A stretch of 44,569 nt of DNA, taken from assembly GCA_014621425.1 (NCBI GenBank), contig JAANBB010000343.1, forward strand, positions 1-44,569. Reading direction: 5' to 3'. Within the stretch, counting starts at the first letter, position 1; each line of letters begins with the position of its first letter. Made by a program: the position numbers and the translations under genes. Below the pieces are notes generated by a model that was not told the origin of the DNA, did not search any database, and saw only the letters and a program-made list of their open reading frames with translations. This DNA comes from Cylindrodendrum hubeiense. Taxonomy: Eukaryota > Ascomycota > Sordariomycetes > Hypocreales > Nectriaceae. Shown piece after piece: positions 1 through 44,569 of the stretch.

Positions 1-2640
1 CAGGCACCAGCCAGGCAGACCTGCCCGGTGGTGGTGCCCGTGTTGCACTGCGCGCTTGACAGACAAGCGACACAGTGGCCAGCCGTGCACACCTGTCCGC
101 TGGTGCACTGTGAATTGGCTGTGCAGCCCGCCGAGCAGGTGCCGCTGTTGCAGACCTGCCCAGCGGTGGTGCACTGGGCGTCGAGGATACAGGCACTGCA
201 GCTGCCCAAGGTGCAGACTTGACCGGCATTGCACTGCGAGCTGGCGGTACACGCCACGCAGAATCCCGCCTGGCAGACTTGACCAGTGGCACAGCCCGAG
301 TTGGCGGTACATGCGGCGATGCAGGAACCGCTGCTGCAGACCTGCGATGACGTGCATTGCGAGGACGACGTGCACGCGGCGCACGCGCCCGAGGTACAGA
401 CCTGTCCGGTGTTGCACTGTGTCGTGTCGGTACACGCTGAACAGGCACCCGAAGTGCACACCTGGCCGGCGCTGCAGCCCAGGTTGCTGGTGCAGCTCGC
501 AACACAGGTTCCGAGGCGGCAGACCTTGCCCGAGCCGCACTGCGTATCGGTGCTGCACGATGAGCAGACGCCGCTGAGACAGACTTGGCCGGTGCGGCAC
601 TGCGACGTGTTGGTGCATCCGGTGCAGAGGCCGGACGTGCCGGTGCCGTGTGGGGTACAGACACGGCCGCCGCCGCAAGCGATTCCGGCGCCCAGCGTCG
701 TGTCGCACGACGTGGCACATAGGCCGGTGCCGGTATCACAGCCCTGCCCGGCAAGGCACTGTGAGTCGAGCGTGCACAGGCCGCAAGCTCCGGTTGAGAG
801 GTTGCACACGGTGCCTGCGTTGCACTGGGCGTTGGTGGTACACGTATCGCAGATTCCAGTGGCCCGGCACACCTTGTCGGCCGGGCATCCCGCGTTGGAT
901 GTGCAGGGCGCGATGCAGCTTCCGCTGCTGCAGACCTGTCCAAGCGTGCATTGAGTGCTGGCCGTGCAGGCGGTGCAGGTGCCGCTGACGCACGCGAGGC
1001 TGTTGGAGCACTGGGAGCTGAGCGTGCAAGCGCCGCATTTCCCGGTGAAGGTGTTGCAGACCTCGTTTGCGCCGCAGTCCGTGTTGACGGTGCACACATT
1101 GCGACACGCGCCATTGGAGCAGTATTGCCCGATGCCCGCGAGAGTGCCGCATTGGACATCGGCAGCACACGCGCCGCAAGATCCGAGATTGCAGACCTGG
1201 CCGGTGCCGCAGTCGGGATTTGCCGTGCACGTGGTGCAGTGGCCCGACTTACACGCCTGGCCGGTGCTGCACTGGGAATTCGCTGTGCAGCCCGCCGAGC
1301 AGAGGCCGCTGTTGCAGACCTGCCCAGCCGTGGTGCACTGCGAGTCGAGGAGACAGGAGCCGCAGGCTCCAAGCAAACATACCTGTCCGGTGGTGCAATC
1401 CGACGTTGCTGTACAGGCCGTGCAGAGGCCGGACTTGCAGACCGATCCCAGGGTACAAGACGTGGATGTGCAAGCGGCGATGCATACACCAGCGCTACAC
1501 ACTTGTCCACTGCCGCACTGAGTGCTGGCCGTACAGCTGCCACAGGATCCCGATACACAGGCTTGGCCAGTGCCGCATTGCGAATTGGTCGTGCAGGCGA
1601 TGCAATGGCCCGACTGGCAGATTTGGCCGCTGCTGCACGTCAGGCTGGAAACACAGCCGGCAGTACAGACGCCGCCGCTGCAGATTTGACCAGCAGTCGT
1701 ACACTGAGAGTCAGACGTGCAAGAGCCACAGGCCCCTGAGGTGCACACTTGGCCAACGCCACATTGTGATGCAGCGGTACAGGGGACACATAGTCCGGCT
1801 TGGCACGTTTGCCCGCTCGGACATGCAGAGTTGGTAAGACAGGCGGGGTGGCAGACGCCGGCGTCGCAAACGTTGCCGAGCCCGCACTGGAGGCTTGTCG
1901 TACAGGTGCCGCAAGCCCCCGAGTTGCAGACCTTGCCAGTGCCGCAGTCCGAGTTGAGCAAGCAGGCCGAGCATCTTCCCAGCGTGCATACTTGACCGCC
2001 GGTGCACTGGCTGCTTGCGGTGCAAGCAGGTTGGCATGCCCCCGAGATACAGACCTCGGTGGAGGCGCATTGGGCGTCGAGAAGACAAGTGGTACAGAGA
2101 CCAGCCAGGCATGCTTGGCCCGAGTTGCACTGCGAGTTGGTTGTGCAGCCGGCGCAGAGTCCGAGGATACACGCCTGGCCTGCAAGGCAGCCCGCGTTGT
2201 TGAGGCAGCCCGGGTTACAGAGCCCGAGCGTACAGACGTTGCCGAGGCCACAGTCCGAGTTTTGGACGCACGTAGTACATTGGCCGGCCCTACAAGCCTG
2301 GCCCAGGGTACACTGGGAGGTAGCTGTGCAGTCGCCACAGACGCCGTTGGTGCAGACATCGCCAATGGAGCACTGGGAGCTGATGGTGCACGGAGCGCAT
2401 ATTCCAGCGGTGCAGACGTCGTCGCCGCTGCACTGGGATGTGGCCGTACAAGGGCGGCAGAGGCCGCTTTGACAGCTGAGTCCGAGGGTGCAGTCGCTGT
2501 TGCTACTGCAGGACGGGGTGATGGTGGGGGCGCAAAGTCCGCTCTGGCACGACATGCCGGTGCCGCACTGAGTATCAGTTTGGCACCCAGTGCAGATTCC
2601 ATTCGGGCAGATTTGGCCCGTCGAGCACTGACTAGAGGTG
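1..2640 (-). repeat. C-terminal-side zone: ~20-residue modules with two-residue linkers
   Basis: About 43 modules (estimate from length) of the form C-x5-C-x5-C-x4-C-x2, for example CTSGQVCTAGHCVAC, CSGDDVCTAGICAPC and CTLGQACRAGQCTTC. The linker between modules is only two or three residues (VA, AP, GD, AG), so C-x2-C pairs appear that are rare in the core. Gln before the second Cys (SQC, AQC) and the GQVC motif are common. The repeats continue past position 1, so the C-terminus and any anchor are not in the window. Confidence 0.88.
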
Positions 2641-5600
2641 ACACAAAGCGGGAGTAGGTTGGGGAGACAGCTGCCAAGCTGGCACACCTCCGCTGCGGCA
2701 CACTGAGCGGTCGTTGTGCAGCTTTGGAGAATCTTGTTTTGGCAGATCCTCAGCTGACACGTCTGACTTGACGTACAGTCCGTGTCCGAAGAACAGCCAG
2801 GAACACATACACCAAACTGACAGGCCTCGGTATCGGCGCAGCCGGCATTGGAGCGGCAACCGGGGATACAGGTGCCGAACTGGCAGATATTGCCAGTACT
2901 GCATGTCGAGTCGGTCGTACACTGAAGTGGGTTTGGAACACAGGTTCCGGCAGTACATATCTCAGCGCTGTCACAATCAGCGCTGGTAGCGCAAGTGCCG
3001 GGGCCGTTGTAGATACAAGTGCCGCCATTGCAAACGCAGAGACCGAAGAGACAGATGTTGGTACCAAGGACCTTGCCAGTACATTCTATATTGCTGCCAC
3101 ACGCCGTCGAGGGGACGACGCAGGTACCGCTCTGGCAGATCTCGCCGCCGGCCTGGTCGCAGTCGACAGATGATGTGCACGTAGGCGTCGACCCGGTGCC
3201 CAGGGTGCAGACACCGTTGAGACAGAGACAAACGCCGGGGAGAGCACAAACGTTGAGGCCAGTGTAACAGTCAGTCGTGCCTGCGCACGATAGGGTGGCG
3301 ACACAGGCGCCGCTCTGGCACGTCGAGCCGGTGATACAATCCGAGTTCGCCGAACAGCCGGGGATGCTTGGGTCGAGAGCGCATTTTCCGTCAGTGCAAG
3401 TGCAGAGACCAAGCGTGCAGAGGCCAACACCCAGAAGGCAGTCAGAGGCGCTGCTGCACGAAACAAGTCCAATATCGGCAGTGCAAAGGCCGACAGTGCA
3501 GACACTGCCCTCGCTGCAGTCGTCGTTATTCTCACAGGTGAGTGATCTAGGAGTACAGGCTCCGAGAGCGCAGAACTCCTCCGCGTTGCAGTTTGCGTCG
3601 GTCGTGCATTGGTTGATGATGGTGGCACGGCAGAAGCCAAGGGTGCAGGTTTCACCACTGGTACAGTCGTCGTCGTCGGTACAGGTTAAGAGTTGCGAGA
3701 CGCAGAGACCAACCAGACAGATTTCGCTATTGCTGCTGTCGCAATCGCTGGTGCTGCTGCATTGGAGCAGAGCGGAGGGGAGGCAAAGTCCTAGCTGGCA
3801 TTCTTCACTTGAGCTGCAGTCGGAGGCGCTCTGGCACCCAGAAAGGTTGCTGGGGAGGCAGACGCCAGAGGTACAGGTTTCATCGTTCGCACAGTTGTCG
3901 GTGGTCGTGCAACCGGCGAGGACTGTAGGGATGCAGAGATTGCTCGTACATGTGAAGCCCTCGTCGCAAGGGGCGGTGGCAGAACAGCCCGAGAATGACT
4001 GCGGAAGGCAGAGGCCAGCACGGCATACATTTTCGGTGCCGCAGTCGGTATCGGCGGCGCAGAGGAGCGAAACTGGCACGCAGAGGCCGGATTCACAGGT
4101 GAAACCGTCTGGGCAGTTGAGGTTAATAGCACAACCGGTAAGGACGCCAGGAATACAAGTGCCCAGCCTGCACACCAAGCCTTCTGCACAAGAATCGCCG
4201 GTTCCGCAGGCAGGGAGGACCGAGGAAATGCAAATGCCAGATGTGCAAGTAGCACGTTCTCCACAATCCTCCGTTGTCGAACAAGTAGACACAATGCTGG
4301 GGAAACAGACGCCCGAGGTACAAGTCTCCCTGACGGCGCAGTCGGTATCGGATTGACAGTTGGGAAGAAGCTGGGGGACGCAAATACCACCAGTGCAGGA
4401 CTGTGATGCTCCACAGTCGTTATCGGAGCTGCAGCTCAAGATGGTTCGCGGGATACAGTAACCCAGTCGGCAAACCTCAGTTACAGCACAGGTAGAATCA
4501 TCTGTACAGCTCGTGAGGAGCGTCGGAAGACAGACCTCAGCAACACATGTCTGGCCCTCAGTGCACTCGGTGTTGCTCTGGCACCCATTGAGAAGAGTGG
4601 GAAGACAGAGGCCGCCAGTGCAGGTTTGGTCAGTATCACAGTCGGAGGTTTGTGTGCAGCCTGGGAAGACGGTTGCAAGACAAATGCTTGCTGTGCAAGT
4701 CTGTCCAGTCGTACAATCTTCCGATGTCGAGCATGTAACGGTATTGCGAGGAATACAGACACCGAGTCGGCAGACGTCGGAGCTAGAGCAGTCGCCATCA
4801 ACTGTGCAGGTAGGAAGCACAGTGGGGAGGCAAACTCCAGCAGTGCAAGATTGACCTGTGCCGCAAGTCTCACTAGTAGTGCAACCGCTGATCGTCTCCG
4901 GGAGGCATATGCCAGCCGTGCAGACGAGGCCATCGCCACAAGGGCTATCGGCGGAGCAGTCAGGGAACACCGTGGGGAGGCAGACTCCAAAGGTGCAAGT
5001 CTGAGTGGAGGTACATTGCTCGTCGGTAGTACAGACAGCGAGATCGTCAGGAATGCAGACACCAAGTCGACAAACCTCACCACTATCGCATTCGGTGCCA
5101 GTGCTGCAATCGGTCAGTGTCGAGGGCAGACAAACACCAGCAATACAAGTCTGGCCATCTGTGCAACCAGTGTTGTCGCCGATGCAGAGAGTGAGGGCGT
5201 CTGGTACGCAGACGCCGGAGACGCAGGAGTCGGCCGATACGCAGTCCTGATCCGTAGCGCAGGTTGGGAAGACTGGTGGCACGCAGAGTCCAGCTGTGCA
5301 CACTTGGCCTTCACTGCAGGCTTCATCAGTAGCACATAGATCGAGCACGTCAGGCAGGCAGACTCCAATTCTGCAGACCTGACCTGTGGCGCACTGAGTG
5401 TCGGTGGTACATGTAGGTAGGGTGGCGGGAACGCATACACCAGCTGTGCATGTTGATCCGTCGGCGCAGGGAGCCACATCGCTACATGTAGGCAGGAGAA
5501 CAGGAAGACAAACGCCTCCGGTGCAGACATTGCTTGAAGAGCAATCCGTATCAGTCTGGCAGGTTGGGAAGACCTCCGGAACGCAGAGGCCGACAGAGCA

Positions 5601-8600
5601 AGTCTGACCGTCGCCACATTGAGCAGTGGTTTCGCAACTGGTGACAATAACTGGTAGACAAACGCCGATTCTGCAGACAAGATTGGAGCCACAGTCGGAA
5701 TCGGCCGCACAAACCGGCAAGTCTGCAGGCACACAAACCCCAGAGGCGCAACTCTGGCCTTCAGCACAATTGCCGCCAGCGTCGCAGGCAGGCAGGATGG
5801 TCGGGATACAGATTCCAGCAGTGCAGGTGTACCCGCTGGTGCAATCCGCATTGGCGGCACAAGGTGGGAAAATCTCCGCGACACAAATACCGCCAGCACA
5901 AGTCTGACCCGTCGCACATTGTTCTTCACTTGTAACGCATGGAACGACAGTTGAGGGGAGACAGACTCCAACTCGACAAACCTGGTCGGTGCCACAGTTG
6001 GAATCGCTTGTACAAGCAGGGAGGAAGGCAGGTAAGCAAACTCCAGCGGTGCAAGCTTCATCTTCTCCGCAGTCCGAGTCCACTGTACAGCTGCCAAGAA
6101 CATCGGGAAGACAGAGTCCACCGGTGCAGGAAAAGCCGCTGCCACAGTCGTTGGTGGATGTACAAGCAGGGTAGAGCTCTGGGATGCAGAGACCGGCAGC
6201 ACAGGTCTGCCCGGCATCACACTGTTGGTCGGTTTCACACAAGGTGAGCGTATCAGGGATGCAAAGGTTGAGTCGGCAGACCTGGCTAGCACCACAATCG
6301 GTATCAGCCTCGCAAGTCGGGAGGACATCGGGGAGGCAGACACCAGAGGTGCAAGTTTGACCATCGCCACAGTTCTCGCCATTTGCGCAGGATGCCAAAG
6401 TGGAGGGGAGGCAAATACCACCATTGCAGGAATTGTTGCTTCCACAGTCACTGTCGACTGTGCAAGTTGGGAAGACCTCAGGGAGACAAATGCCGGAAGT
6501 GCAAGTCTGAGTGTCGGTGCAGCCAGTGTCGTCCTCGCATTGGGTGAGAGTCTCTGGGAGACAGAGGTTGAGTCGACAGACCTGGCCGGTGGCGCAGTCT
6601 GTATCAGTTCCACAGGTGGGAAGGATGTCTGGGACACAGATGCCGGACACACAACTCTCGTCAGAGGAACACTCGCCCTCGTTGACGCAAGCCGGGAAAA
6701 TGGAGACAATACAGAACCCGCCAGTACAGGCTTGGCCACTGACGCAGTCGCTATCGACTGTGCACCTAGGGAATGCCTCGGGGAGACAGACACCGGCTGT
6801 GCAGGTTTGATCTTCATCGCAGTCAGAATCCGCCGTACAAATGTTGATCGCGTCGGGGATGCAGAGGCCAAGTCGACAGACTTGATTGAGGCCACATTCG
6901 GTGTCAGCGGAACAATCAGGAAGATCGACTGGGAGGCAGACTCCTGATACACAAGTTTGGCCATCGGTGCAAGTTGCTCCATCGGCGCAGGTTGGCAGGA
7001 CATCTGGTAGACAGACGCTATTGTAGCAAGCGTTTCCGGTTCCGCAGTCGCTGTCTTCTGTGCAAGGTGGGAAGACCTCTGGGATACATAATCCAGCTGT
7101 GCATGTCTGGCTGTCACCGCAATCGGTGTTGTCGGTACAGGCAGTGATGACCTCAGGGATGCAGATATCCAGTCGGCAGAGTTGGTTGGCACTGCAGTCG
7201 CTGTCGGTTGTGCAAGTGGGTAAAACGGAAGGTAAGCATACACCTAAGGTGCAAGTTTGGTCATCGGTACAGGAGGTGTCATCCGTGCAAGCAGGCAGAG
7301 TACTGGGCAGGCAGGACCCGCCAGTGCAAGTGTTGCCGCTGTCGCAATCGGTAGTAGCTTCACAAGCAGGGTATATCGACTGGAGGCAGAGACCAGCGGT
7401 GCAAGTAAGGCCTTCTGTACAGTCGGAGTTGACGGTACAAGTGGCGAGAGTCTCAGGGATGCAATAACCGAGCCTGCAGACCTTTCCAGTTCCGCATCCA
7501 GAGTCGCTCGTACAGGTAGCGAGCACATCAGGAAGGCAGAGTCCGGAAACACAACTCTGTCCTGCGGTGCAAGGAGCAGAGTCATCGCAGATAGGGAAGA
7601 CTGTGGGAAGACAGACACCAGCAGTGCAAGTTTCGCCAGTCGCACAATTGCCAGAAGACGCGCAAGGCGGGAATACCTGGGGAAGGCATATTCCGCCCAG
7701 ACAAGCCTGGCCAGTTGAACAATCGGTATCAGCTGCGCACGTGGCGAGAGCCTTGGGAACACAAAGTCCGAGTCTGCAGACCGAGGTGGTTTCGCAGTCG
7801 GAATCAAGGGCGCAAGTTGGCAAGATAGATGGGAGGCAGAGTCCGCTGGTGCAGGTCTGGCCGTCGCTACAGGGAGTGTCGGTACCACATGACTGGAGAG
7901 TAGATGGCAGGCAGGTGTTTGCGGTACAGGACTGATCCTGACCGCAGTCAGAATCTTCAGTACAGGTAGGGAAGATGGGTGTAATGCAGAGGCCGGCAAC
8001 GCATGTAAGATCGCCGGAACATGGCTCGGTATCGGAGCACGAGGTCAAAGTCCGGGGAAGGCAAACTCCAAGTCTGCAAACCTCACCGAATGCGCACTCG
8101 GAGTCAACAGCACAAGTTGATAGCCCGTCAGGTAGACAGAGTCCATCGGTGCACGTCTGGCCGGCAATAGTGCAAGAGGCGTCAGTAGTGCAGGTGGGGA
8201 ACACAGTTGGGAAACAAGAGCCGCCAGTGCAAGCTTCGCCGTTGTTGCAGTCGCTGTTGGCTTCGCAAGTCGGGAAGACTTCCGGGAGACAGAGGCCAGC
8301 AATGCAGCTTTCGGGTGAGGTGCAGTCGTCGTTGGTTGTGCAAATTGCGAGGTCGGCGGGCAGGCAGTTGCCGAGTCTGCAGACCTGATCGCCGGTGCAC
8401 TGAGCATCGGTGGTGCAGGTAGGAAGGATCGCGGGAAGACAGACACCAGATGTACAGACTTGGTTAGCACTGCAGTCGTCGTCGATTTCGCAAGTGGGGA
8501 GGACACTGGGAAGACAGACACCTGCTGTGCAGGTGGATCCAGTGTCGCAGTTGTCGTTGGTTTGGCAAGGGGGGAACAGGGCCGGGAGGCAGAGACCACC

Positions 8601-11600
8601 GGTGCAGCTTTCACCGCTCGAACAACCAGAGTCATCGGCGCAGATGTTGAGGGCGGAAGGAATGCAAAGTCCGAGTCTGCAAACCTGCTCGCCGCTGCAG
8701 TCGGCCTCAGTTGAACATGTAGGCAGGACGTCAGGAAGGCAAACGCCGCTGGTGCATGTCTGGGTGGCCGTACACTGGGTGTCGTCCGAGCATGTCTCCA
8801 GGCCAAGTGGCAAGCAAAGGTTTGCAGTACAAGACTGTCCCGAAGAACAATCCGCGGATGTTTGGCAAGCCGGGAAGAGTTCGGGGACACAGAAACCAGC
8901 GGTACAAACGTTGCCGTCAGCACATCCAGTGTCCGCTGTGCAGCCGATGATGTCTCGGGGCAGACAAACTCCCAATCGGCATAGTAGGTCAACAGCACAA
9001 TCAGAATCTGCCGAGCAAGATGCGAGGCTGCTGGGAAGACAGACGCCGGAGGTGCAGGTCGCATCTCCAGTGCAAGAGCCATCAGTGTTGCAGGATGCAA
9101 TCGTGGACGGAAGGCAGTTTTGCTCGATACATGACTGGCCGTTGGCACAATCTGCAGTGATCTCGCAGGGAGGGAAAATTGTGGGGAGGCAGATACCCGC
9201 CGTGCAAGTCTCAGAGGAGCCACATGGCGTTTCCGCATCGCAGGTGGTGAGAGTTCGAGGAAGACAGGCTCCGAGCCTGCAAACTTCAGTAGTAGTACAG
9301 TCGGCATCTACCGTGCAAGTCTCCACAACGGTCGGAAGACAGACACCTGCAGTACAAGTTTGTCCAGTGCTGCAAGTGTTAGATGTATCACCTCCGCAAA
9401 TGTTGAGTGTGTCGGGAAGGCAGAAGCCAGCTGTGCAGGCCTGTCCAGAAGAGCAATCCGTGGTAGAAGTACACGCCTGGAAGACGTCTGGGACGCAAAG
9501 TCCAGCTGTACAAGTCTGGCCCTCGGCGCAAGTTCCATCAGTAGGACAAGCAAGCAGATCACGAGGGAGGCATACGCCAATTCGGCAGACCTCAGTTGTA
9601 GTACAATCCGCGTCAGCTGAACAGGTGGGGATGAAGTCTGGGAGGCAGACCCCGGTGTTGCAGGTTTCAGCAGCGCCGCAATCACTATCAGCAGTACACT
9701 GTGTGATGATGGGAGGCAAACAGGTTCCTGCAACGCAGATATCGCCAGAGGTCGTGCAGTCGGCAGCAGTCTCACAGCCTGGGAAGACGGTTGGAAGGCA
9801 GATTCCAGCCGTGCAAGTCTTGTCGTCGGGACATGATTCATCGCCGGATGTACATGTTGTAACGACTTCGGGGAAACAGACACCGAGCCTACAGACCTCG
9901 CTATCACCGCAGTCGATATCTTCCGCGCAGGTAGGGAGAACTTCAGGAAGACAGACGCCTGCAGTGCAGGTTTGTCCAGTTGTGCAAGTGCCATCTCCAG
10001 CTGTGCAGGGAGTCAATGTGCTTGGGAGGCACACGTTGGCAGTGCAAGTCTCGCCGTCAGTGCAATCATCAGATGTTTGACAGGTAGGAATGATTTGCGG
10101 CAAGCAAAGGCCGGCAGTACACGTTTGGCTAGTGCCACAATCGCTGTCGGTGGTGCATAGAATGAGAGACTTGGGGATACAGACACCAAGACGACAGACG
10201 TCGTCAGCGGAGCAATCAGTGTCGGCAGTGCAAGGGTCCAAGCCTTCGGGAAGACACACGTTGTTGGTGCAAGTCTGGCCAGTGCTGCAACCATTGTTGT
10301 CGGTGCAGCCAAGGAGGCCAGAAGGAAGACAGAGACCGCCCGTGCAAGAGTTACCGGTGCCGCAGTCGGCGTCGACAGTACAAGGGGAGAATATTTCAGC
10401 AATGCAGAGGCCGGCCGTGCAAGTCTGTGTGGAAGAACATTCGGTTTCATCTGTGCAGGGTGCAAGGTCCTTGGGGAGACACACACCAAGTCTGCAAGCC
10501 TCATCTGATCGACAGTCGGAGTCGATACTGCATGTAGGCAAGACATCTGGAAGACAAACACCCAAGGTGCAAACCTGTCCAGAGGCGCATGGGTTTTCAG
10601 TATCGCAAGTGGGAATAATAGTCGGTAGGCAAACTCCAGCAGTGCAAGTGGACTCAGAATCGCAGTTGGCATCAGTCTGACAGGGAGGGAAGACCTCGGG
10701 GAGACAGACACCAGCAGTGCAAACCTGATCAACAGGACATTCCTCATTGACCTGGCAGAGAGCGAGGTCTTGGGGAAGGCAAACTCCAAGCCGGCAGAGT
10801 TGATCCGTGGCACAGTCGGTGTCGACGGTGCAGATAGGTAGATTGTCGGGAAGACAAACTCCTGATGTGCAGGTCTGGCTATCGGGACATTGACCGTCCT
10901 CAGGGCAGGCAGCGAGACCTGAAGGAAGGCAGATACCTCCTGTACAGGCCTGGTCGCTAGTACACTCAGAGTCTTGGGTGCAGGTGGGGAAGATCTTGGG
11001 AATGCAAATACCAGCAGTGCAGCTCTCGTTGTCAGTGCAGTCACTGTTGGCAGTGCAGACCTTAAGGTCTACTGGGAGGCAGACTCCAAGGCGGCATACA
11101 CCATTGCTCTGGCAGTCGCTGTCTGCTGTGCAAGTAGGCAGTTCGGGAAGACAGACTCCCAAGGTGCATGTAAGATCGTTGGTGCAGGGCACCTGCTCCG
11201 AGCAGCCGGCGAGACCTGAGGGAAGGCAAAGGCCACCGGTACAGGCATTACCAGTACCGCAATCCCCATCGACAACGCAAGTAGGGAAAACAGTTGGGAG
11301 ACACATTCCGCCAGTGCAGGACTCGCCAGTGGCACATGATGTGTCATCCGTGCACAAGGAAAGAGCTTGCGGAAGACAGACGCCGAGTCGGCACACAGTA
11401 TCAGTCGCACAGTCGGTATCGGTGGAGCAAGTCGGTAGCACACGTGGTAGACAGACTCCTGCACTACAGGTTTGGTCCGCTGTACACTCCGAGTTATCAG
11501 TGCAAGTTTCCAATCCAGCGGGAAGGCAAGTGCCGGCGGTACAGGTGTTTCCTGAAGAGCAGTCGGCGGAGGTTGTGCAGGTGGGGAACAAAGGCGGAAT

Positions 11601-35600: not shown

Positions 35601-38600
35601 CGCCTCGCAAGTGCTTGCGTCGGCGCAAGTCTCCAGGATCGCAGGGACACACGACCCGGCGACACACTGCTCGTTGGTGGAGGCGCAATCGGCATTGACC
35701 TCGCAGTTCGAAAGAACTGAGGGGAGACAAACTCCTGCGGTGCAAGACTGGCCTTCGGAACATTCGCTGGTTTGCGCGCATGCAACGATGATTTCGGGAA
35801 GACAAGTTCCTAGGGCAGCGGAGCATTTGAAGCCGGCGCTACATTCTGTGTCTGATGCGCAAGAAGGCAAAATAGTAGGGACGCAGACACCTGCGATACA
35901 AGTTTGGCCTTCACCGCAAGTAGATCCTTCTGGACAGGTATCCAGGACTGAAGGGAGACAAAGCCCAGCAATACAGTCCTCGGTGGAGGAACAGTCGCTA
36001 TCAGTTGCGCAGTTGGAAAGGACTGAGGGGAGACAGAAGCCGGCTGTGCAAGTCTCGCCATCGGAGCATTCGGTACTTTGCGTGCAGGCAGTGATGATTT
36101 CCGGGAGACAGATACCAAGGGCGGCCGAGCACTTGAGGCTGTCGGTACAGTCGGTGTCTGACGTACACGTAGGTAGGACCGTAGGTACACAGGCCCCAGC
36201 GATACAGGATTGGCCTGTGGCACAACCAGTTCCGCTCGGGCAAGTTTCAAAGACGGATGGGATGCAAGTGCCAGCGACGCAAGTCTCAGAAGAGGAGCAG
36301 TCGGTATCCTGCGCGCAGGTTGGGAGAATCGAAGGAAGACAGAATCCGGCTGTGCAGGCTTGTCCATCGCCGCAGTCAGCATTTGCCTGGCAGGATGTGA
36401 TGACCTCCGGGAGGCATATTCCTAGCGCGGCAGAGCATTTGAGGCTATCGGAGCAGTCCGCATCAGTGGCACATGTCGGCAGGATAGTCGGGACACACAC
36501 GCCTGCAATGCAGGATTGATCCGTGCCGCATTCCGTTACGTCTTGACAAGTGTCCAAGATCGAAGGAAGGCAGAGTCCACCGATACAGCTTTCATCGGTG
36601 GAGCACTCAGAGGCATCCGCACAGAACGGTATAATTGATGGCAGACAAAGACCAGCTGTGCAAGTCTCGTCACTTCCACACTCGCTAGTATCCGCACAGG
36701 TGATGACGATCTCAGGGAGACACACGCCGAGAGCAGCGGAGCATTTGAGGCCGTTGCTGCAATCGGAATCTGTGGTACAGGATGGCAAAACGCTGGGGAT
36801 ACATACGCCGCCTGTGCAAGATTGACCGGTTTCGCAGTCAGCTGCACTCGAGCAGGTATCAAGGACAGAGGGGAGACAGAATCCACCAACACACTGCTCA
36901 GAGGTAGCGCAGTCGGTATTAGTGCTACAAGTAGGGATGAGTGAGGGGATGCAAAAGCCACCTGTACAAGCCTCTCCTTCTGCGCAATCGGTGGAAGCCT
37001 GGCAGGATGTGATAACATCTGGAACGCATACACCGAGGGCGGCGGAGCAGGTGAAGCTGTCTGTACAGTCCGCGGCGGACGTACAAAGAGGCAAGATGGT
37101 GGGGATGCAGACGCCTGCTGTGCAAGATTGACCGTCCGCACAGTCAGCTATGGTTGAACAGGTCTCCAAGATTGAAGGAAGACAGAGTCCAGCAACACAC
37201 TGTTCGGTGGATTGACAGTCGGCGTTGGCAGAGCAGGTGGGCAGGATTGCGGGGAGGCAGAGGCCGGCTGTGCAGCTCTCTCCAGTTCCACACTCGCTGG
37301 TCTGCTCGCAAGTGGTGATAACCACAGGGAGACACGTTCCAAGGGCAGCGGAGCATTTGAAGTTGGCACCACAATCGCTGTCAGAGGAACATTCGGGCAA
37401 GATGGAGGGAAGGCATACACCTGCGGTGCATGTCTGGCCATCGCCACAGCTCGAATCGTCGGTACAAAGAGGGAGTATGTCAGGAAGACATACTCCAGAA
37501 ATGCAGTTCTCACTACTGTCACAATCGGACTCGTCTTGACAAGTCGGGAGGACGGTAGGAAGGCAAAGCCCTGCTGTGCAGGAGTCGCCATTGCTACATG
37601 TGGAATCATCCGTGCAAGCAATGAGAATGCTGGGGAGACAGACTCCGAGCGGAGAGCAGGTTTGACCTGCACTGCAGCTGGAGTCGGATGTACAGGTGGG
37701 CAAGATGGTGGGCAAACATACACCTGCGGTGCAAGTCTGGTCATCGCCGCACGCTGTATCGTCGGTACAAAGAGGGAGTATGTCGGGGAGACATAGTCCT
37801 GCCACACAGTTCTCGCTCTCACCACAGTCCGACCCGTCTGCACAGGTAGGGATGATAGTGGGAAGGCAAAGGCCGGCGGTGCAGCTTTCGCCAGAACTGC
37901 ATGAGCTATCATCACTGCAAGGTGTGATGATGGTGGGTAGGCAAACGCCAAGTGGGGAGCAAGTCTGACCACTGGTGCAGCTTGAATCGTCGGTGCAAAG
38001 CGGTAGAATGGTTGGGAGGCAAACACCTGATGTACAGGTTTGGCCGTCAGCGCATTCGGTTCCGGCTGGACAGAGAGGCAGAGTATCAGGGAGACAAAGG
38101 CCTGCAATGCAGTTCTCGCTAGCTCCACAGTCTGAAGAATCGGCACAGGTTGGTAGAATAGACGGGAGACAGAAACCTGCGGTGCAAGCATCGCCACCAG
38201 TGCAGTCTGAATCCGCCGTACAGGCAGTGATGATTTCAGGGAGACAGTATCCCAAAGCCGAGCACTTCAGGGGATCGGTACACTCCGAATCAGTTGTGCA
38301 GGCTGGCAGGATGGAGGGGATGCACACGCCTGCAGTACAGGTCTGGCCAGAGGTACATGCAGTTTGATCTGCGCAGAGGGGTAGAACTGCAGGAAGGCAG
38401 ATGCCAGCAACGCAGTTGTCGCCATTGCTGCAATCGGCGTTCACTTGGCAAGTAGGGATGATGTCGGGAAGACAAAGACCGGCTGTGCAAGCGTCACCGC
38501 CAGTGCACTCGGAATCCGAAGCGCAAGTAGTGATGATCACAGGCAGACAGTATCCCAGAGCCGAGCACTTCAGAGGGTCGGTACAGTCCGAATCAGTGGC

Positions 38601-41600
38601 ACAAGCCGGCAGAATAGTGGGAATGCATACACCGGCAGTACAAGTCTGACCTGTAGCACATTCATTGCCAGTTGGGCAGATGGGGAGATCATCGGGGATG
38701 CAAACTCCTGACAGGCAGTTGGATCCCGTGTCACATTCGGTGGTATCCCTACAGAACGGAGGGATATTGACGAGACAGAGTCCAGCAACGCAAGCTTCGG
38801 CTTCACCACAGTCAGAGGCATCAGTGCAGGTCCCGAGGGCGGTTGGCAAACAGTATCCGATTCCAGAACAGGCGTACCCATCACCGCAGTCGGCAGTGGT
38901 GGTGCAAGTAGGCAGGACATCGGGGATGCAAACGCCGGCGCGACAGCTCGAGCCCGCAACGCAGGCCGAGTCATCGCTGCACAGAGGGAGGATGTCAGGG
39001 AGGCAAATTCCTGCGACACAGTTCTGTTCTCCTTCGCAGTCGGCGTTGACTTCGCAGACCGGCAAGATTGTCGGTATGCAGATGCCAGCCGCACAGGTAT
39101 CACCAGCGGTGCAGTCAGTAGTCTCAGCACAAGTGGTGATAATCTTAGGAAGACAGAATCCAAGAGTGCATACAAGTGAGCTATCTGAGCAAGGCTCATC
39201 ATCCGAACACTGGGTAAGGTCAGACGGAAGACAGACGCCTTCAGTGCAGGATTGTCCACTGGGGCAAGTCTCGCCATTGGCACAAGTAGATAGAACCTTG
39301 GGAAGACAGGTCTCGGCGACGCACATCTGATCAGCGGTACAGTCTGAATCAGTGGCACATTTACCGAGTAGCTTATCGAAGATGGTGCAAAGTCCATCAA
39401 TGCATGTGCAGAAACCGCCTGGGATACAAAAGCTGTCTGTCGACTGGCAAATCGCGTTGTCGGTACACTGTATGGTGTTCACGCAGATGCCAAACTGACA
39501 TTCCTGGCCAGTCGGGCAGGGCTGAGTGGTGCTGCACAGGGACAGGTTGTCCACGAGTGTACAGAAGCCGTTATTACAGATGCAAAGTCCGAATGCGCAA
39601 AGTCCGGCGCCAACAGGACAATCCTCATTCGTAGCACACTGGGTCGCAGTGTCCTTGGGTGTGCAAGTTCCGCCTTCACAGACTTCGTCGATGGCACATT
39701 GAGCGTCAGACGCACAGTTGGTAGCAGCTGTACAGGTTCCCGATGTGCAGGTCTCGCCACTACCACAATCAGCATCAACACTGCACCCAGATGAGGTGCA
39801 GGTTCCGGAGACGCAAGTCTGCCCGCTGGCACAATCGGTATTGGCAGTGCAGGTCGATGCGGTACATGTTCCGGAGACGCAGGTCTGGCCGCTGGGACAC
39901 TGGTTATCCGCTGTACAGCTGGTAGTAGAGGTAGTGCAGGTCCCGGANACNCAGGTCTGGCCNCTGGGACATTGGTTATCAGCAGTACAGCTGGTAGTAG
40001 AGGTTGTGCAGGTTCCAGATACGCAAGTCTGGCCACTGGCACACTGGTTATCGGCAGTGCAGCTGGTAGTAGAGGTAGTGCAGGTTCCGGAGACACAAGT
40101 CTCACCAGCGGCACAATCGCCATTAACAGAGCAGGCAGGGCTAGGTGGAGTACAGGTTCCCGAGACGCAAGTCTCACCAGCGGCACAGTCGCTATTGACA
40201 GAGCAGTCAGAACCAGACAATGGGGTGCAGGCTCCCGAGACGCAAGTCTCGCCAGTTGCACATTCAGAATCGCCAGAGCAGGGCACATCAGCAATACAGG
40301 TCCCAGAGGAACAGCTTGCGCCAGTGCCGCAATCGTCGCTGACGGAACATTGAACCGGGGTGCAGGTGCCGGCATCACAAGTTTGACCTGCGGGACACTG
40401 AGCGTTGGTGGTGCAACCAGTTGAAGGCGTACAAGTGCCAGAGACGCAGGTTGAGCCCGAGGCGCATTGCTCATTCGCTGTGCAACCATTTGGCACACAA
40501 GATCCAGAAATGCAAGCCTCCCCAACTTGACATTGGTTGTTGGTTGCGCAGGGAGCTGGGGGTGTGCAAGTTCCTGACTCGCAGGTCTCCCCTGTCGCAC
40601 ATTGCGAATTAGATGTGCAGTCGGATGGAGAGCAGCTTCCCTGTACACAACTTTCTGCAGAACCACACTGGGCGCTAGAAGTGCAACCAGATGAAGTACA
40701 GGCCCCCGATACACAAGTCTCGGGGGTGGTACAATCAGCGCTGGAGTCGCAATCGGAGCCGGAGCCGGCGATGCAGGTTCCAGAAGAACATGTCTCCCCA
40801 GTGGCACATTGGCTGTCAATGGTGCAAGCTGTAGGAGAACAAGTTCCAGAGATGCAGCTCTCGCCGGTGCCACATTGAGAGCTTTCAGTACAGGCGGAAA
40901 CAGTGCAAGTTCCGGACACGCAGCTCTCGCTGGTGTCACATTGAGTGCTGTCGGTACAGCCAGAAGCAGTGCAAGTTCCGGAGACACAGCTCTCGCTAGT
41001 ACCGCATTCAGAGCTGTCGGTACAGCCAGAAACAGTGCAGGTTCCAGAGACGCAACTCTCGCCGGTGCCACATTGAGAGGTGGCGGTACAGCCAGTAGCA
41101 GTGCAGGTGCCAGAGACGCAGCTCTCGCTGCTATCACATTGAGAACTGTCGGTGCAGCCAGATGCGGTACAAGCTCCAGATACACAGCTCTCGGTGGTGC
41201 CACACTGAGAACTGTCGGTACACCCAGAAAGAGTACAAGTTCCGGAGACACAGGTCTCGCTGGTGCTACATTGAGAGCTGTCAGTACAGCCAGATGAAGT
41301 ACAGACTCCAGATACACAGGTCTCGGGAGCGGTACAATCAGCACTAGAATCGCAGTCAGTACCGGAGCCGGTGATGCACGTTCCAGAAGAACATGTCTCT
41401 CCAGTGGCACATTGGCTGTCAATAGTACAGGCTGTGGAGGAGCAAGTTCCTGAGATACAGCTCTCGCCGGTACCACATTGAGTGCTTTCGGTACAGCCAG
41501 AAGCAGTGCAAGTTCCGGAGACACAGCTCTCGCTGGTGGCACATTCAGAACTGCTGGTGCAGCCAGAGGGAGTGCAGGACCCAGAGACACAGCTCTCGCT

Positions 41601-44569
41601 GCTTCCGCACTGAGAGCTGTCGGTACAGCCGGAAGTAGTACAGGCTCCGGATATACAAGTCTCGGGGGCGGTGCAATCGGCACTGGAGTCGCAGTCGGTG
41701 CCGGAGCCGGCGATGCAGCTTCCGGAGGGGCAAGTTTCGCCAGTCGGGCATTGGCTGTCAGTGGTGCAAGCTGCAGAAGAGCAGGTTCCAGATACGCAAG
41801 TCTCAGGGGGAGAGCACTCAGAGCTGGATTGGCAGCCATTTCCAGAGCCAGCAGCGCAAGTGCCTGACGTACAAGTCTCGCCGGTGGGGCATTGGCTGTC
41901 AATGGTGCAAGCTGTGGAGGAGCAAGTTCCTGAGACGCAGCTCTCGCCGCTTCCACATTGAGAGCTGACGGTGCAGCCTGACGTAGTGCAAGTTCCGGAC
42001 ACGCAGGTCTCGGGGTCGGTACAGTCTGCACTAGAGTCGCAGTCGGTGCCGGATCCAGCAATACACGTTCCAGTTGAACAGGTCTCGCCAGTCGGGCATT
42101 GGCTATCGACAGTACAGGCTGTGGAAGAGCAACTTCCAGAAATGCAGCTCTCGCCGCTTCCACATTGAGAGCTGTCAGTGCAGCCAGAAGGAGTGCAGGT
42201 TCCAGAGACGCAGGTTTCGCCGCTTCCACATCGAGAGCTGTCGGTACAGTCCACCGTGGTGCAAGCTCCGGACACGCAAATCTCCAAGCTGTTGCAATCT
42301 GCACTAGAGACACAATCGGCGCCGGAGCCAGCGGTGCACACTCCGGCGGGGCAGGTCTCGCCAATCGGGCATTGGCTATCGAGAGTGCATGATTGAGAAG
42401 TGCAGGTTCCAGAAAGGCAGCTCTCGTCGGTTCCACATTGAGAGCTTTGAGTACAGCCTGAAATAGTACAGGCTCCAGATACGCAGCTCTCGCCACTTCC
42501 ACATTGAGAACTCTCGGTACAGCCCGAACTGGTGCAAGCTCCAGAGACGCAAGTCTCGGGGGCGGTGCAATCAGCGCTGGAGTCACAGTCAGTGCCGGAG
42601 CCGGCGATGCATGTTCCGGATGAGCAAGTCTCGTCAGTGGGGCATTCGCTGTTAATGGTGCAGGCTGTAGAAGAGCAAGTCCCAGAGATACAACTCTCGC
42701 CAGTTCCACATTGAGAGCTGTCAGTGCAGCCCGAAATAGTGCACGCGCCAGAGACACAAGTCTCGGGGTTAGTGCAGTCAGCGCTGGTTTGGCAGTCATT
42801 TCCAGAGCCAGCAGCACAAGTGCCTGACGTACAGGTCTCTCCTGATGGACATTGGGTATCGGTTGTACAGTCCGTAGATGTACAACCACCGGAAACACAG
42901 CTCTCGCCTGAAGCGCACTGGGTGCTAGTAGTGCAACCTGAGTTAGAGCAGGTTCCAGATATACAGGTGTCGGGGGTGGTGCAATCAGCGCTGGATTGGC
43001 AGCCAGAATCGGAGCCAGCAACACAAGTGCCTAACGTGCAAGACTCTCCTGTTGGACACTCAGGGTCAGTTGTACAATCCGTAGATGTGCAACCACCGGA
43101 TACACAGCTCTCGCCTGAAGCACACTGGGTACTAGTAGTGCAACCAGAGCTAGAGCAAGTACCAGATACACAAGTATCGGGGGCGGTGCAATCGGCGCTG
43201 GATTGGCAGTCAGAATCAGAGCCAGCAACACAGGTGCCCAGCGTGCAAGACTCTCCTGTTGGACACTCAGCGTCATTTGTGCAATCTGTGGCTGTGCAAG
43301 CGTTTGAAACACAACTTTCGTCGGAATCACACTGAGAACTAGCAGTACAGCCAGAGGTAGTACACGCGCCAGAAACACAAGTCTCAGGGGCGGTGCAATC
43401 AGAGCTGGATTGGCAGTCACTTCCAGATCCAGCCGCGCAAGTTCCTGATGTGCATGTCTCGCCGGTAGGGCATTGGCTGCCAATGGTGCAATCTGTAGAC
43501 GTGCAAGCGCCGGATACACAGCTCTCGCCAGAACCGCATTGGGTGCTAGTAGTGCAGCCAGACGTAGTACACGCTCCAGATACACAAGTCTGGCCGTTAG
43601 GGCAGGTATCGCTGGTGGTGCAGCCGGTAGTTGAAATAGGACTACACGTTCCAGAATTGCAAGTCTCGCCAGTAACACATTGAGTGTCATCTGTGCAGTC
43701 CGTAGCTGTGCAGATGGTTGACACACAGCTTTCACCAGAGCCACATTGGCTGCTGGATGTGCAAGGGGAAGTGGTACAGGCTCCAGAGACGCAAGTCTGG
43801 CCGTTGGGGCAGGTATCACTGGTAGTGCAGCCAGTGGTCGAGATAGGTGTACACATTCCGGAAGTGCAGGTCTCGCCAGTAACACATTCGGTGCTATCTG
43901 TGCAGTCTGTGACTGTGCAGACATTTGACACACAGCTCTCACCGGAGCCGCACTGAGTGCTATCAGTACATCCGGAGGAAGTGCAGGCGCCAGACACACA
44001 AGTCTGGCCGTTGGGACAGGTATCGCTGTTGGTACAGCTAGTGGTCGAGACAGGAGTGCAAATTCCGGCACTGCAGGTCTCACCAGTTGCACACTGGGTG
44101 TTATCTGTGCAATCTGTAGATGTACAAGCGTTTGACACGCAGCTCTCGCCAGTACCACATTGACTACTAGACGTGCATGCTGTGCAAACTCCAGCATCAC
44201 AGATTTGTCCATTAGTACAGTCAGAGTTGCCAGAGCACCCAGTTGAAGCAGTGCAAAACCCATCTTGACAAGTCCCAATATTGCAATCAATATCGAAAAA
44301 GCAAGTGCATCTACCGGAGTCGCAGCTGTGCCCCGGCTTACAATCCCCATCAGTAGTGCATGCAGTAGTGGGTGTTGCGCAGACGCCAGATTGGCAGGTC
44401 TGTCCACCAGTACACTGAGAGTCATCGGAGCAGGTAGTACTGGGTGTGGAGCAGACTCCAGATTGGCAGGTCTGCCCATTAGAGCACTGNGAGTCANNGG
44501 NGCANGTCGTGCTAGGTGTTGTGCAGACACCAGACTGACAGGTTTGCCCACCGGTGCACTGAGAGTCAT
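1..44569 (-). CDS. Giant cysteine-rich modular repeat protein, internal fragment (both ends outside window)
   Basis: One uninterrupted frame fills the window (complete codons 44567 to 3, 14,855 residues) without a start or stop. I translated stretches at both ends, both hinges and several core units; all are in the same phase. In-frame Met codons at 43854-43856, 39324-39326 and 2553-2555 are not followed by any in-frame stop. The product is a chain of four-cysteine modules, typically C-x5-C-x5-C-x4-C, separated by linkers of 2 to 11 residues, so about one residue in six is Cys. In the parts I translated I saw no Trp, very few Met and no membrane segment. Cys spacing and the DC-x2-G-x-x-C-x2-G-x-C style recall EB-module or Dickkopf-N-like cysteine-rich repeats, but I cannot assign a family. 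A secreted, disulfide-bonded fibrous or surface role is inference. The N-terminus lies beyond 44569 and the C-terminus beyond 1. Recognising the coding frame is near certain; function is unknown. Confidence 0.93.
2640..4140 (-). other. C-side transition zone with three C-x-C modules
   Basis: In protein order, family B ends and modules become irregular (ICLVGLCVSQLLTC, FCALGACTPRSLTC). Three modules with C-x-C follow: GLCTLGLCTCTDGKCALDP (about 3370-3440), VCALPGVCLCLNGVCTLG (about 3195-3260) and ICLFGLCVCNGGTCIYNG (about 2995-3060). Each is followed by a regular module such as CQSGACV, CQSGTCVV or CTAGTCVP. Next come CQFGTCIPGC and CQFGVCVPGC modules, and a last Leu-Pro linker (LPNLLPLC) near 2650. 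The C-x-C modules closely match those of the N-side hinge and differ from the surrounding repeats. Confidence 0.82.
12880..14250 (-). repeat. Homogenised 300-bp family B block with CEAN modules
   Basis: Markers at 12890, 13190, 13490, 13791 and 14091 are almost exactly 300 bp apart, and the units share long similar DNA stretches. One module has an unusual fourth loop (VCEANTCLP, TCEANICLP) in place of the common TAGV or TSGV, followed by STLQSC or STIQSC. Another reads CTTTADCLAAQTC or CTSSSDCLTTQSC. The uniform period indicates recent tandem duplication of a whole four-module unit. Confidence 0.65.
21030..21420 (-). repeat. Five-module variant unit in family B
   Basis: The distance between successive markers (21410 and 21039) is about 371 bp instead of about 303 bp, which adds one module. 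Four linking modules instead of three are visible between the two markers, at about 21335, 21260, 21190 and 21110. The frame is unchanged. This is a single-module insertion or the remnant of unequal exchange. Confidence 0.7.
21440..23060 (-). repeat. Homogenised family B block lacking the marker arginine
   Basis: Five adjacent units of about 305 bp are nearly the same in DNA. In four of them the marker loses Arg: DVCVVGVCLPP (22028), DVCALGVCLPP (22330), DVCTLGVCLPP (22636) and DVCTIGVCLPP (22940). The neighbour at 21718 keeps it (DVCRLGVCFPP). All five share the PP linker and a VTTC-like start to the next module. The combination suggests a recently amplified sub-family. Confidence 0.7.
24335..24400 (-). 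other. Boundary between core families A and B with elongated linker
   Basis: The normal seven-residue linker between modules is replaced by LPDITDIFPEC, about four residues longer. On the N-terminal side the last family A marker is LKCSAVGVCLP (24480). On the C-terminal side the first family B marker is QVCRIGVCLP (24160). The linker is acidic and contains two Ile-Phe-type hydrophobics. It marks a clean switch between two amplified super-repeat families. Confidence 0.7.
24390..39190 (-). repeat. Core repeat family A: about 49 copies of a ~306-bp (102-aa) four-module unit
   Basis: The marker LKCSAALGVCLP (or SAVGVC, SAIGVC, SALGYC) recurs about every 306 bp from 39165 to 24480; I count about 49 copies, including the divergent edge copies at 38866 and 39165. 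Each unit has four four-Cys modules. In order they are the SAALGVCLP module, a CTGGQTCTAGLCLP module, a module ending CVAGxCVPSILDTC or CLAGICLPSILDTC, and a CAADQTCTAGVCVP module ending TILPTC. Linkers are Leu-Pro plus aliphatic residues. Copies differ by many silent changes, for example Leu-Lys-Cys written CTCAAATGC, CTCAAGTGT or CTGAAGTGC. Divergent copies include 30916, 28133, 37048 and 37653-37952, where the Leu-Lys motif is replaced. Confidence 0.9.
28510..30700 (-). repeat. Locally homogenised block of family A units
   Basis: Seven adjacent units share long stretches of near-identical DNA, clearer than between distant copies. A typical unit contains EVVTTCEDDSTCTGGQTC, CLPPIVKTC, CVAGLCLPAVLDTCPGG and ADQTCTAGVCVPTILPTC. 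The shared motif gcagc(c/g)gagcatttgag recurs at about 29372, 29680 and 29988. This looks like recent amplification or gene conversion inside the array. Confidence 0.65.
39300..39660 (-). other. N-side hinge: C-x-C modules between outer zone and core
   Basis: In protein order the regular repeats stop at EVCEGGTCTPKDTATQC. Then come GLCAFGLCICNNGFCTLVDN, a CPTGQECQFGIC module, and SFCIPGGFCTCIDGLC followed by TIFDKLLGKC. Core modules then begin (DQMCVAETCLP). Two C-x-C motifs (CIC, CTC), each followed by a Gly-containing C-x4-C and a hydrophobic linker (TLVDNL, TIFDKLL), set this segment apart. It is less repetitive and richer in Phe, Leu and Ile than its surroundings. It may be a folded junction or hinge; that role is inference. 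Confidence 0.8.
39868..40085 (-). repeat. 72-bp near-identical tandem repeats
   Basis: Three copies of a 24-residue module with core CTADNQCPSGQTCVSGTC and linker TTSTTS. The shared ggtagtag motif starts at 39921, 39993 and 40065, exactly 72 bp apart. Differences are few and mostly silent. Three ambiguous bases fall in this array, which suggests that near-identical copies were not cleanly resolved in the assembly. Confidence 0.85.
39948..39963. other. Ambiguous bases (N at 39948, 39951, 39963)
   Basis: Three unresolved bases sit inside the 72-bp tandem array. In the coding frame all three are third codon positions: GTN (Val whatever the base), TGN (Cys in all neighbouring copies) and AGN (Ser in neighbours). 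This is what merging of near-identical repeat copies or alleles with silent differences would give. Confidence 0.9.
40865..41330 (-). repeat. 66-bp tandem module array
   Basis: About seven successive modules of 22 residues of the CTDSSECGTSESCVSGTC type with a TASG-like linker. The marker cagctctcgc and its close variants recur every 66 bp (40921, 40987, about 41053, 41119 and onwards). Neighbouring copies differ at only a few positions, including silent third-position changes. A similar shorter run lies near 41,460-41,640. Confidence 0.78.
41690..43450 (-). repeat. Higher-order repeat marked by AGSGTDC linker
   Basis: A module ending in CIAGSGTDC or TSGSGNDC recurs near 41692, 41840, 42043, 42315, 42590, 42795, 42998, 43210 and 43420. 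Spacing is mostly 203-212 bp (three modules) and sometimes about 275 bp (four modules). A typical order is a TINSEC-type module with the long linker, then CDSSADCTAPETCVSGAC, then CTESSQCGSGESCVSGAC. Earlier copies near 41353 and 40746 are more widely spaced. The varying number of modules between markers suggests gain and loss of whole modules. Confidence 0.75.
44255..44345 (-). other. Variant module with C-x-C motif near N-terminal edge
   Basis: Within the regular array the translation changes to GHSCDSGRCTCFFDIDC followed by NIGTCQDGFCTASTGC. It contains CTC, a Phe-Phe pair and a DxDC segment, and its Cys spacing differs from the surrounding C-x5-C-x5-C-x4-C units. It resembles the C-x-C modules at 39,370-39,610 and 2,980-3,440, so it may be another hinge or a ligand-binding module. 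It separates the 72-bp array at the edge from the longer 22-24-residue module zone. Confidence 0.7.
44346..44569 (-). repeat. Tandem 72-bp coding repeats at the window edge
   Basis: Three consecutive modules of 24 residues with core CSDDSQCTGGQTCQSGVC and a Thr/Ser/Pro linker (STPSTT, TTPSTT). The shared gagtca motif starts at 44419, 44491 and 44563, exactly 72 bp apart. The copies are nearly identical at DNA level and the middle one contains five unresolved bases. The array runs off the window, so its copy number is unknown. Confidence 0.85.
44490..44505. other. Ambiguous bases (N at 44490, 44497, 44498, 44501, 44505)
   Basis: Five unresolved bases lie in the middle copy of the edge 72-bp array. 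In frame, 44490 and 44505 are silent third positions (TCN Ser, ACN Thr); the other three affect the two residues that read Asp and Ser in the neighbouring copy. The frame is not interrupted. Confidence 0.9.

Follow-up and report, generated by a model that had tools for sequence, protein, structure and literature searches.

What kind of gene lies on a contig that a single reading frame crosses from one end to the other? Contig JAANBB010000343.1 (C272 hereafter; its 44,569 bases are the whole stretch analysed here, called the window) belongs to a 47.5-Mb assembly of 798 contigs. On its minus strand one frame runs from 44567 to 3 (14,855 codons) with no stop and is open at both contig ends. Eight N bases leave four residues unreadable (amino acids (aa) 22, 23, 1534 and 1538, counted from 0), the stop-free status thus covering 14,851 of the 14,855 codons. 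The remaining five frames contain 48, 177, 281, 594 and 677 stops, and in a Markov control (60 first-order sequences of the same dinucleotide make-up, 180 frames, N taken as A) frames averaged 514 stops, never had fewer than 454, and stayed open for 301 codons at most. The claim of the initial annotation that one open frame of at least 14,855 codons fills the window was therefore upheld, also by the purifying selection described below; its further statement that the frame has neither start nor stop holds for stops and needs qualifying for starts, 13 ATG codons being in frame, the earliest of them at aa 237 (numbered from 0). Repeat units are cut mid-unit at both contig edges and stay in register up to each edge, so the gene extends beyond both ends and is, as had been proposed, longer than 44.6 kb. 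The extension into flanking contigs that had been suggested did not succeed: DNA searches with both window ends returned no overlapping contig.

The expectation that gene finders would miss the frame was borne out by the listing of open reading frames (ORFs), in which 50 ORFs are closed and reach 200 aa, every one of them outside the minus frame (none could lie in it, because it has no stop). No introns are needed, because units with four cysteines cover 14,591 of the 14,855 residues and the rest are mostly similar Cys-rich modules; a crude pattern search returned three candidate donor-branch-acceptor sets, none of them required by the frame. No structured RNA was found in the window at the gathering scores of Rfam, and one 5,568-base piece queried against a phage collection gave no match. 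The parts of the frame are as follows.

3..44567, minus strand: single open frame, internal part of one giant gene (no stops, selection on the frame, Markov control).
39648..44567, minus strand: N-terminal block, aa 1-1640, 71 short-linker units (unit counts, profile matches).
39348..39647, minus strand: boundary modules between N-terminal block and core (aa 1643-1677 and 1700-1736, counted from 0), irregular and outside the regular unit.
3468..39347, minus strand: core, aa 1741-13700, 472 units forming 118 superrepeats (linkers, identity by lag).
3033..3467, minus strand: second boundary modules, aa 13701-13845, by eye matching the first set in type, outside the regular unit.
3..3032, minus strand: C-terminal block, aa 13846-14855, 44 units, leaving the contig (linkers, base composition at third codon positions).

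The translated stretch contains 2,407 cysteines (16%), 25% Ser+Thr, only 0.6% Lys and 0.7% Arg, almost no His and no Trp. A regular expression (X allowed to stand for Cys) recognized 591 four-Cys units and left 264 residues over; the commonest spacing, C-x5-C-x5-C-x4-C-x7, accounts for 358 of the 591. Units of the N-terminal block, which has 37.6% Ser+Thr, measure 20-26 aa with a linker of four residues in 42 of 71 cases, and their similarity peaks every third unit. In the core, with a net charge of about -11 per 100 residues, the linker is exactly seven residues long in 462 of 472 units (most commonly LPSILPT, VPTILPT and LPTILPT), and unit identity is 0.595 at lag 4 against 0.39-0.42 at lags 1-3, i.e., the core is built of 118 copies of a superrepeat of four units and ~101 residues. 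The C-terminal block has linkers of two to three residues (36 of 44 units). By eye, modules similar to those of the first boundary are found near the end of a smaller gene on another contig, C101, of the same assembly. Neighbouring superrepeats share on average 60% protein identity (highest pair 86%), and since their mean similarity (0.60 at lag 1) declines steadily the farther apart they lie, reaching 0.37 at lag 80, as local duplication would lead one to expect, the array would have grown by tandem duplication, largely local, followed by long divergence. The nearest relative of a superrepeat is the adjacent one in only 45 of 118 cases and at least ten places off in 35, so that larger or older rearrangements took part as well. 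The frame has no more than 185 sites for trypsin (3 of them in aa 1-1640), and digestion would yield just 38 peptides of 7-30 aa, which makes proteomics based on tryptic peptides a poor test of the protein. The dibasic pairs KR, RR, KK and RK do not occur in the 14,855 aa (~2 are expected by an estimate from the numbers of K and R), which fits, weakly, one long chain that is not cut by a Kex2-like protease.

The core repeats allowed selection to be measured within the array itself. Between core units one superrepeat (lag 4) apart, the proportion of synonymous differences (pS) was 0.66 and that of nonsynonymous differences (pN) 0.30 (pN/pS 0.45), corresponding to a ratio of substitution rates (dN/dS) of ~0.24 at a synonymous distance (dS) of ~1.6; pS exceeded pN in 379 of 385 pairs (385 of the 468 lag-4 core pairs were used, 83 that differed in length or Cys positions being dropped). 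In the frames shifted by one and two bases pN/pS was 1.16 and 1.38 (Cys codons were excluded in frame and included in these controls). Purifying selection has thus acted on the protein in the minus frame only and, with a dS of ~1.6, over a long time. A real gene that is silent or decaying in this strain and retained by chance is quite unlikely given the low pN/pS and zero stops in 14,851 readable codons, although the selection measured is that between old copies, with which a recent loss of expression would be compatible, and a related piece on contig C336, if it is part of the same gene, shifts frame (by sequencing error or in reality).

Which protein family the array belongs to was addressed by Pfam and NCBIfam scans of four pieces (3,858 of the 14,855 aa). 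DUF7107 (PF23416) matched all four at 124-213 bits (cut-off 24.6; E 3e-36 to 6e-64). Dickkopf_N (PF04706) exceeded its 25-bit cut-off in three and reached 21.3 bits in the C-terminal piece, a similarity of profiles alone. TIGR04201 (Myxo_Cys_RPT) matched the end pieces at 90 and 178 bits (cut-off 25), and of the core pieces one scored 15.7 bits and one gave no match; the piece at 42000-44567, in the N-terminal block, was matched by both DUF7107 and TIGR04201. The scans of the four pieces turned up no enzyme domain. To judge from its sequence, the window protein is a member of a known family, remarkable for being extremely long and regular. The name DUF7107 was found in no paper, and no such protein appeared in the literature on Dickkopf-type fungal proteins (most subscription papers lay outside the scope of both searches) or among the matches listed for giant fungal genes and cysteine-rich repeat giants. 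Among solved structures nothing better than E 0.11 was obtained by sequence.

The same genome holds further members, with arrays on C336, C501, C101 and C490. Family searches of its contigs scored a part of their candidates (150 of 595 in one search), so further arrays may exist. The right window end matched, as DNA, the arrays on C501 and C336 at 65-80% identity (one 30-base stretch at 93%); the left end matched only itself among the genome contigs, and as protein it found the arrays on C490, C501, C336 and C101 at 32-53% identity. C490 carries a complete-looking small gene: its 744-aa open stretch has a hydrophobic beginning, continues as a stalk rich in Ser and Thr, and closes with a stop after an array like the C-terminal block of the window. 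The C101 gene (1,124 aa) is 49% identical over 93% to the 1,872-aa protein EDB81DRAFT_762333 of Dactylonectria macrodidyma; its head is on contig C43, which shares an exact overlap of 195 bases with C101, and from this similarity the C43/C101 gene is likely the orthologue. By eye, its plan is a small copy of that of the window (short-linker units, an irregular module, LP-linker units, an irregular module). The annotation of EDB81DRAFT_762333 seemingly fuses the Cys-rich gene with its neighbour, a same-looking neighbour lying downstream of the C101 gene (by eye). C101 was also considered as the other end of the window gene and was rejected, for its upstream part is on C43 and its neighbour is the gene fused in the Dactylonectria model (by eye).

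The heads on C336, C43 and C490 all start, by eye, with Met followed by a hydrophobic stretch; on C336 this signal-peptide-like start is followed by a head region and an array that leaves the contig, and C501 begins inside an array that resembles that of C336. The two contig ends are 73% identical over 159 bases (longest common word 24 bases), from which C336 and C501 likely adjoin. On the simplest reading C336, C501 and C272 would be pieces of one gene longer than 55 kb (the pieces added up), in an order that we infer from their similarity. At ~2016-2215 of C336 the array shifts frame, which may be an error of sequencing or assembly or a real break. At ~5040-5080 of C501 the array continues unbroken into a PDR-type ABC transporter, entering it midway, with the first part of that gene absent; C501 was rejected as the 3' end of the gene on these grounds. 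The junction is probably a misjoin (otherwise a real rearrangement), and is taken as such because the end of C43 is also misassembled: positions 1-155 of C43, beside the exact overlap, are ~155 bases unrelated to the C101 gene.

Contig ends in this assembly are thus unreliable, which raises the question of whether the window could be an artefact in which repeats have been chained to a false length or order. Besides the ends of C43 and C501, single Ns occur within the repeats, and one long-range duplicate or collapse would escape notice. Against this, the superrepeats are old and distinct (dS ~1.6; neighbours on average 60% and at most 86% identical), so that reads are placeable, the frame stays open for 44.6 kb with steady seven-residue linkers, and the order of blocks is broadly that of the C101 gene (by eye). 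We consider such an artefact very unlikely.

The origin of the DNA deserves attention, since a search of ~5.8 billion proteins with a core piece gave 75 matches whose named origins are all Myxococcota or Deltaproteobacteria, TIGR04201 is named for Myxococcus repeats, and the bacterial and archaeal species genomes contain three relatives of the core superrepeat (31-42% identical). A bacterial contaminant (e.g., from Myxococcota) or a very recent transfer is nevertheless extremely improbable. The 75 matches are just 26-33% identical, and the nearest named protein is that of D. macrodidyma, a member of the Nectriaceae (PMC4400431). The GC content at third codon positions (GC3) is 0.53 in the core and 0.51 in the N-terminal block, closer to the range of 0.57-0.68 seen in three genes of this assembly (the transporter and two polymerases) than to the values of two bacterial relatives (0.88 and 0.85; the third relative is outside the GC3 and codon comparisons). 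The correlation of codon usage between the core and these three fungal genes is 0.83, 0.83 and 0.86, compared with 0.56 and 0.69 for the bacterial relatives. The DNA of the N-terminal block is akin to the arrays of C501 and C336, contigs on which fungal-type genes lie beside the arrays (a PDR_CDR ABC transporter and a desaturase, respectively). The C-terminal block, with a GC3 of 0.73, is intermediate, above the three fungal genes and below the two bacterial relatives. This block (3-3035, ~1,000 codons) differs in GC3 from the core (0.53) and over part of its length shares 48% identity with the small C490 gene; it is possibly of separate origin. The window covers an internal part of a single gene from a filamentous ascomycete near Hypocreales, and its identity as a giant fungal gene for a Cys array is almost certain. 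The placement near Hypocreales is based on the D. macrodidyma protein and on an RPB2-like sequence judged by eye.

What the protein might look like was modelled from the array itself. An AF2 model of eight core units (56 window rows) had a mean pLDDT of 76.9 and a hairpin in all eight units, and a second model of six short-linker units (40 rows) showed the same layout at pLDDT 63 (the rows overlap along the array, which puts the effective depths below 56 and 40). Each unit is accordingly predicted to be a very small hairpin module stabilised by disulphides, in which, as in the core of knottins with its two disulphides, Cys would pair C1-C3 and C2-C4. A head with a signal peptide like that of C336 would lead the protein into the secretory pathway, and we regard it as very probably secreted. 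The Ser/Thr-rich end may be O-mannosylated, and the chain would form a protease-resistant string of beads or a rod of the order of a micrometre, assuming 1.5-2 nm per unit.

Because ~600 disulphide-locked beads of ~25 residues are joined by constant linkers, the array is best read as a structural fibre, perhaps part of a coat, protective or adhesive, in the wall of the hyphae or the extracellular matrix. By analogy, such a coat or matrix fibre and all other roles taken together appear about evenly balanced, and the full reading of a giant, secreted, very acidic fibre of wall or matrix is one that we favour by a little. A bolder version is put forward tentatively, as somewhat less probable than its opposite: the fungus would secrete one molecule with no fewer than 14,855 residues (plausibly above 18,500, should C336, C501 and C272 form one gene), a near-pure polymer of two-disulphide mini-hairpins with a length of the order of a micrometre, which would make it a giant extracellular filament of a new class in fungi.

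A different role was considered because the linker sits at the place of the inhibitory loop of squash trypsin inhibitors: the protein might be a multi-headed protease inhibitor or ligand trap in which the linkers are exposed loops like the squash binding loop. This is unlikely. Of 462 linkers, only 31 have Lys or Arg at their third, P1-like position, the Pfam family Squash scored 14.2 bits (cut-off 22) in one of the four pieces and was unlisted in the other three, and the cysteine that holds the loop in squash inhibitors (Cys IV) has no counterpart in the window unit. With a score below the cut-off and so rare a basic P1-like residue, the array was not assigned to the squash-type trypsin inhibitors or knottins. 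The structural fibre remains the preferred reading, and a fibre this long with ~2,400 Cys would put both secretion and oxidative folding to an extreme test. The array is also a natural model of how a disulphide-rich fibre may grow by tandem duplication at a fixed linker length, and the gene offers an entry point to the DUF7107 family, which is not mentioned by name in the literature searched. It further illustrates that draft assemblies cut and hide genes of this sort.

Arrays of DUF7107 are, as a Pfam family, a kind already known, and the new aspects of the window are extreme length and regularity. The closest comparison is EDB81DRAFT_762333 of D. macrodidyma, which has DUF7107, a signal-like start, a Cys-rich head, and blocks of short-linker and LP-linker units (by eye); its array after the head comprises ~750 aa (by eye), compared to at least 14,855 in the window, and it is without the 118-fold superrepeat. 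The Myxococcus-type repeats of TIGR04201 have a 22-residue four-Cys unit and score above the cut-off at both short-linker ends of the window; the family is bacterial by name, and the two core pieces stay below the cut-off or without a score. A search for giants (~5,500-17,500 aa) returned two matches, a Cys-rich protein of 5,600 aa with other repeats and one of 6,999 aa low in Cys, in a database whose fungal share is not given, so that two matches are no proof that fungal giants are absent. The 5,600-aa protein has a different four-Cys repeat, carries the Pfam label PF10282 with an N-terminal propeller-type domain, and is probably bacterial, which suggests a convergent giant. Balbiani ring silk proteins of Chironomus are giant secreted Cys-containing repeat proteins with long uninterrupted arrays; they are insect silk, and their likeness to the window protein is one of description.

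Among fungal proteins, QID74 of Trichoderma is described as a secreted cysteine-rich wall protein with 13 repeats of 59 residues, the deletion of which leads to greater sensitivity to exogenous lytic enzymes and the repeats of which bind self-chitinase (PMC13170347). It thus resembles the window protein in being fungal, rich in cysteine, built of tandem repeats, and secreted and associated with the wall (as the window protein would be). Its 59-residue repeat has a tridecapeptide motif that ends in Trp (PMC13170347), whereas the window has no Trp and a period of ~101 residues; on this repeat description (as distinct from a sequence alignment) the window protein was not placed with QID74, which is likely an analogue and not a homologue.

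As to length, the initial annotation had ranked the frame among the largest uninterrupted coding sequences and as comparable only to giants such as bacterial surface proteins and synthetases. The first part is fair, but the frame has company: the fungal nonribosomal peptide synthetase gene tex1 measures ~62.8 kb (PMC11610996), and UniProtKB contains over 41,000 proteins longer than 5,000 aa (PMC11573180). Of the second part, the giant size holds, and the product is instead a fungal array of DUF7107/Dickkopf_N type. Synthetases of the tex1 type share with the window a very long fungal gene and are enzymes with catalytic modules, unlike the four window pieces that were scanned. The gene is not unique in length, and it is extreme for a fungal protein other than a peptide synthetase.
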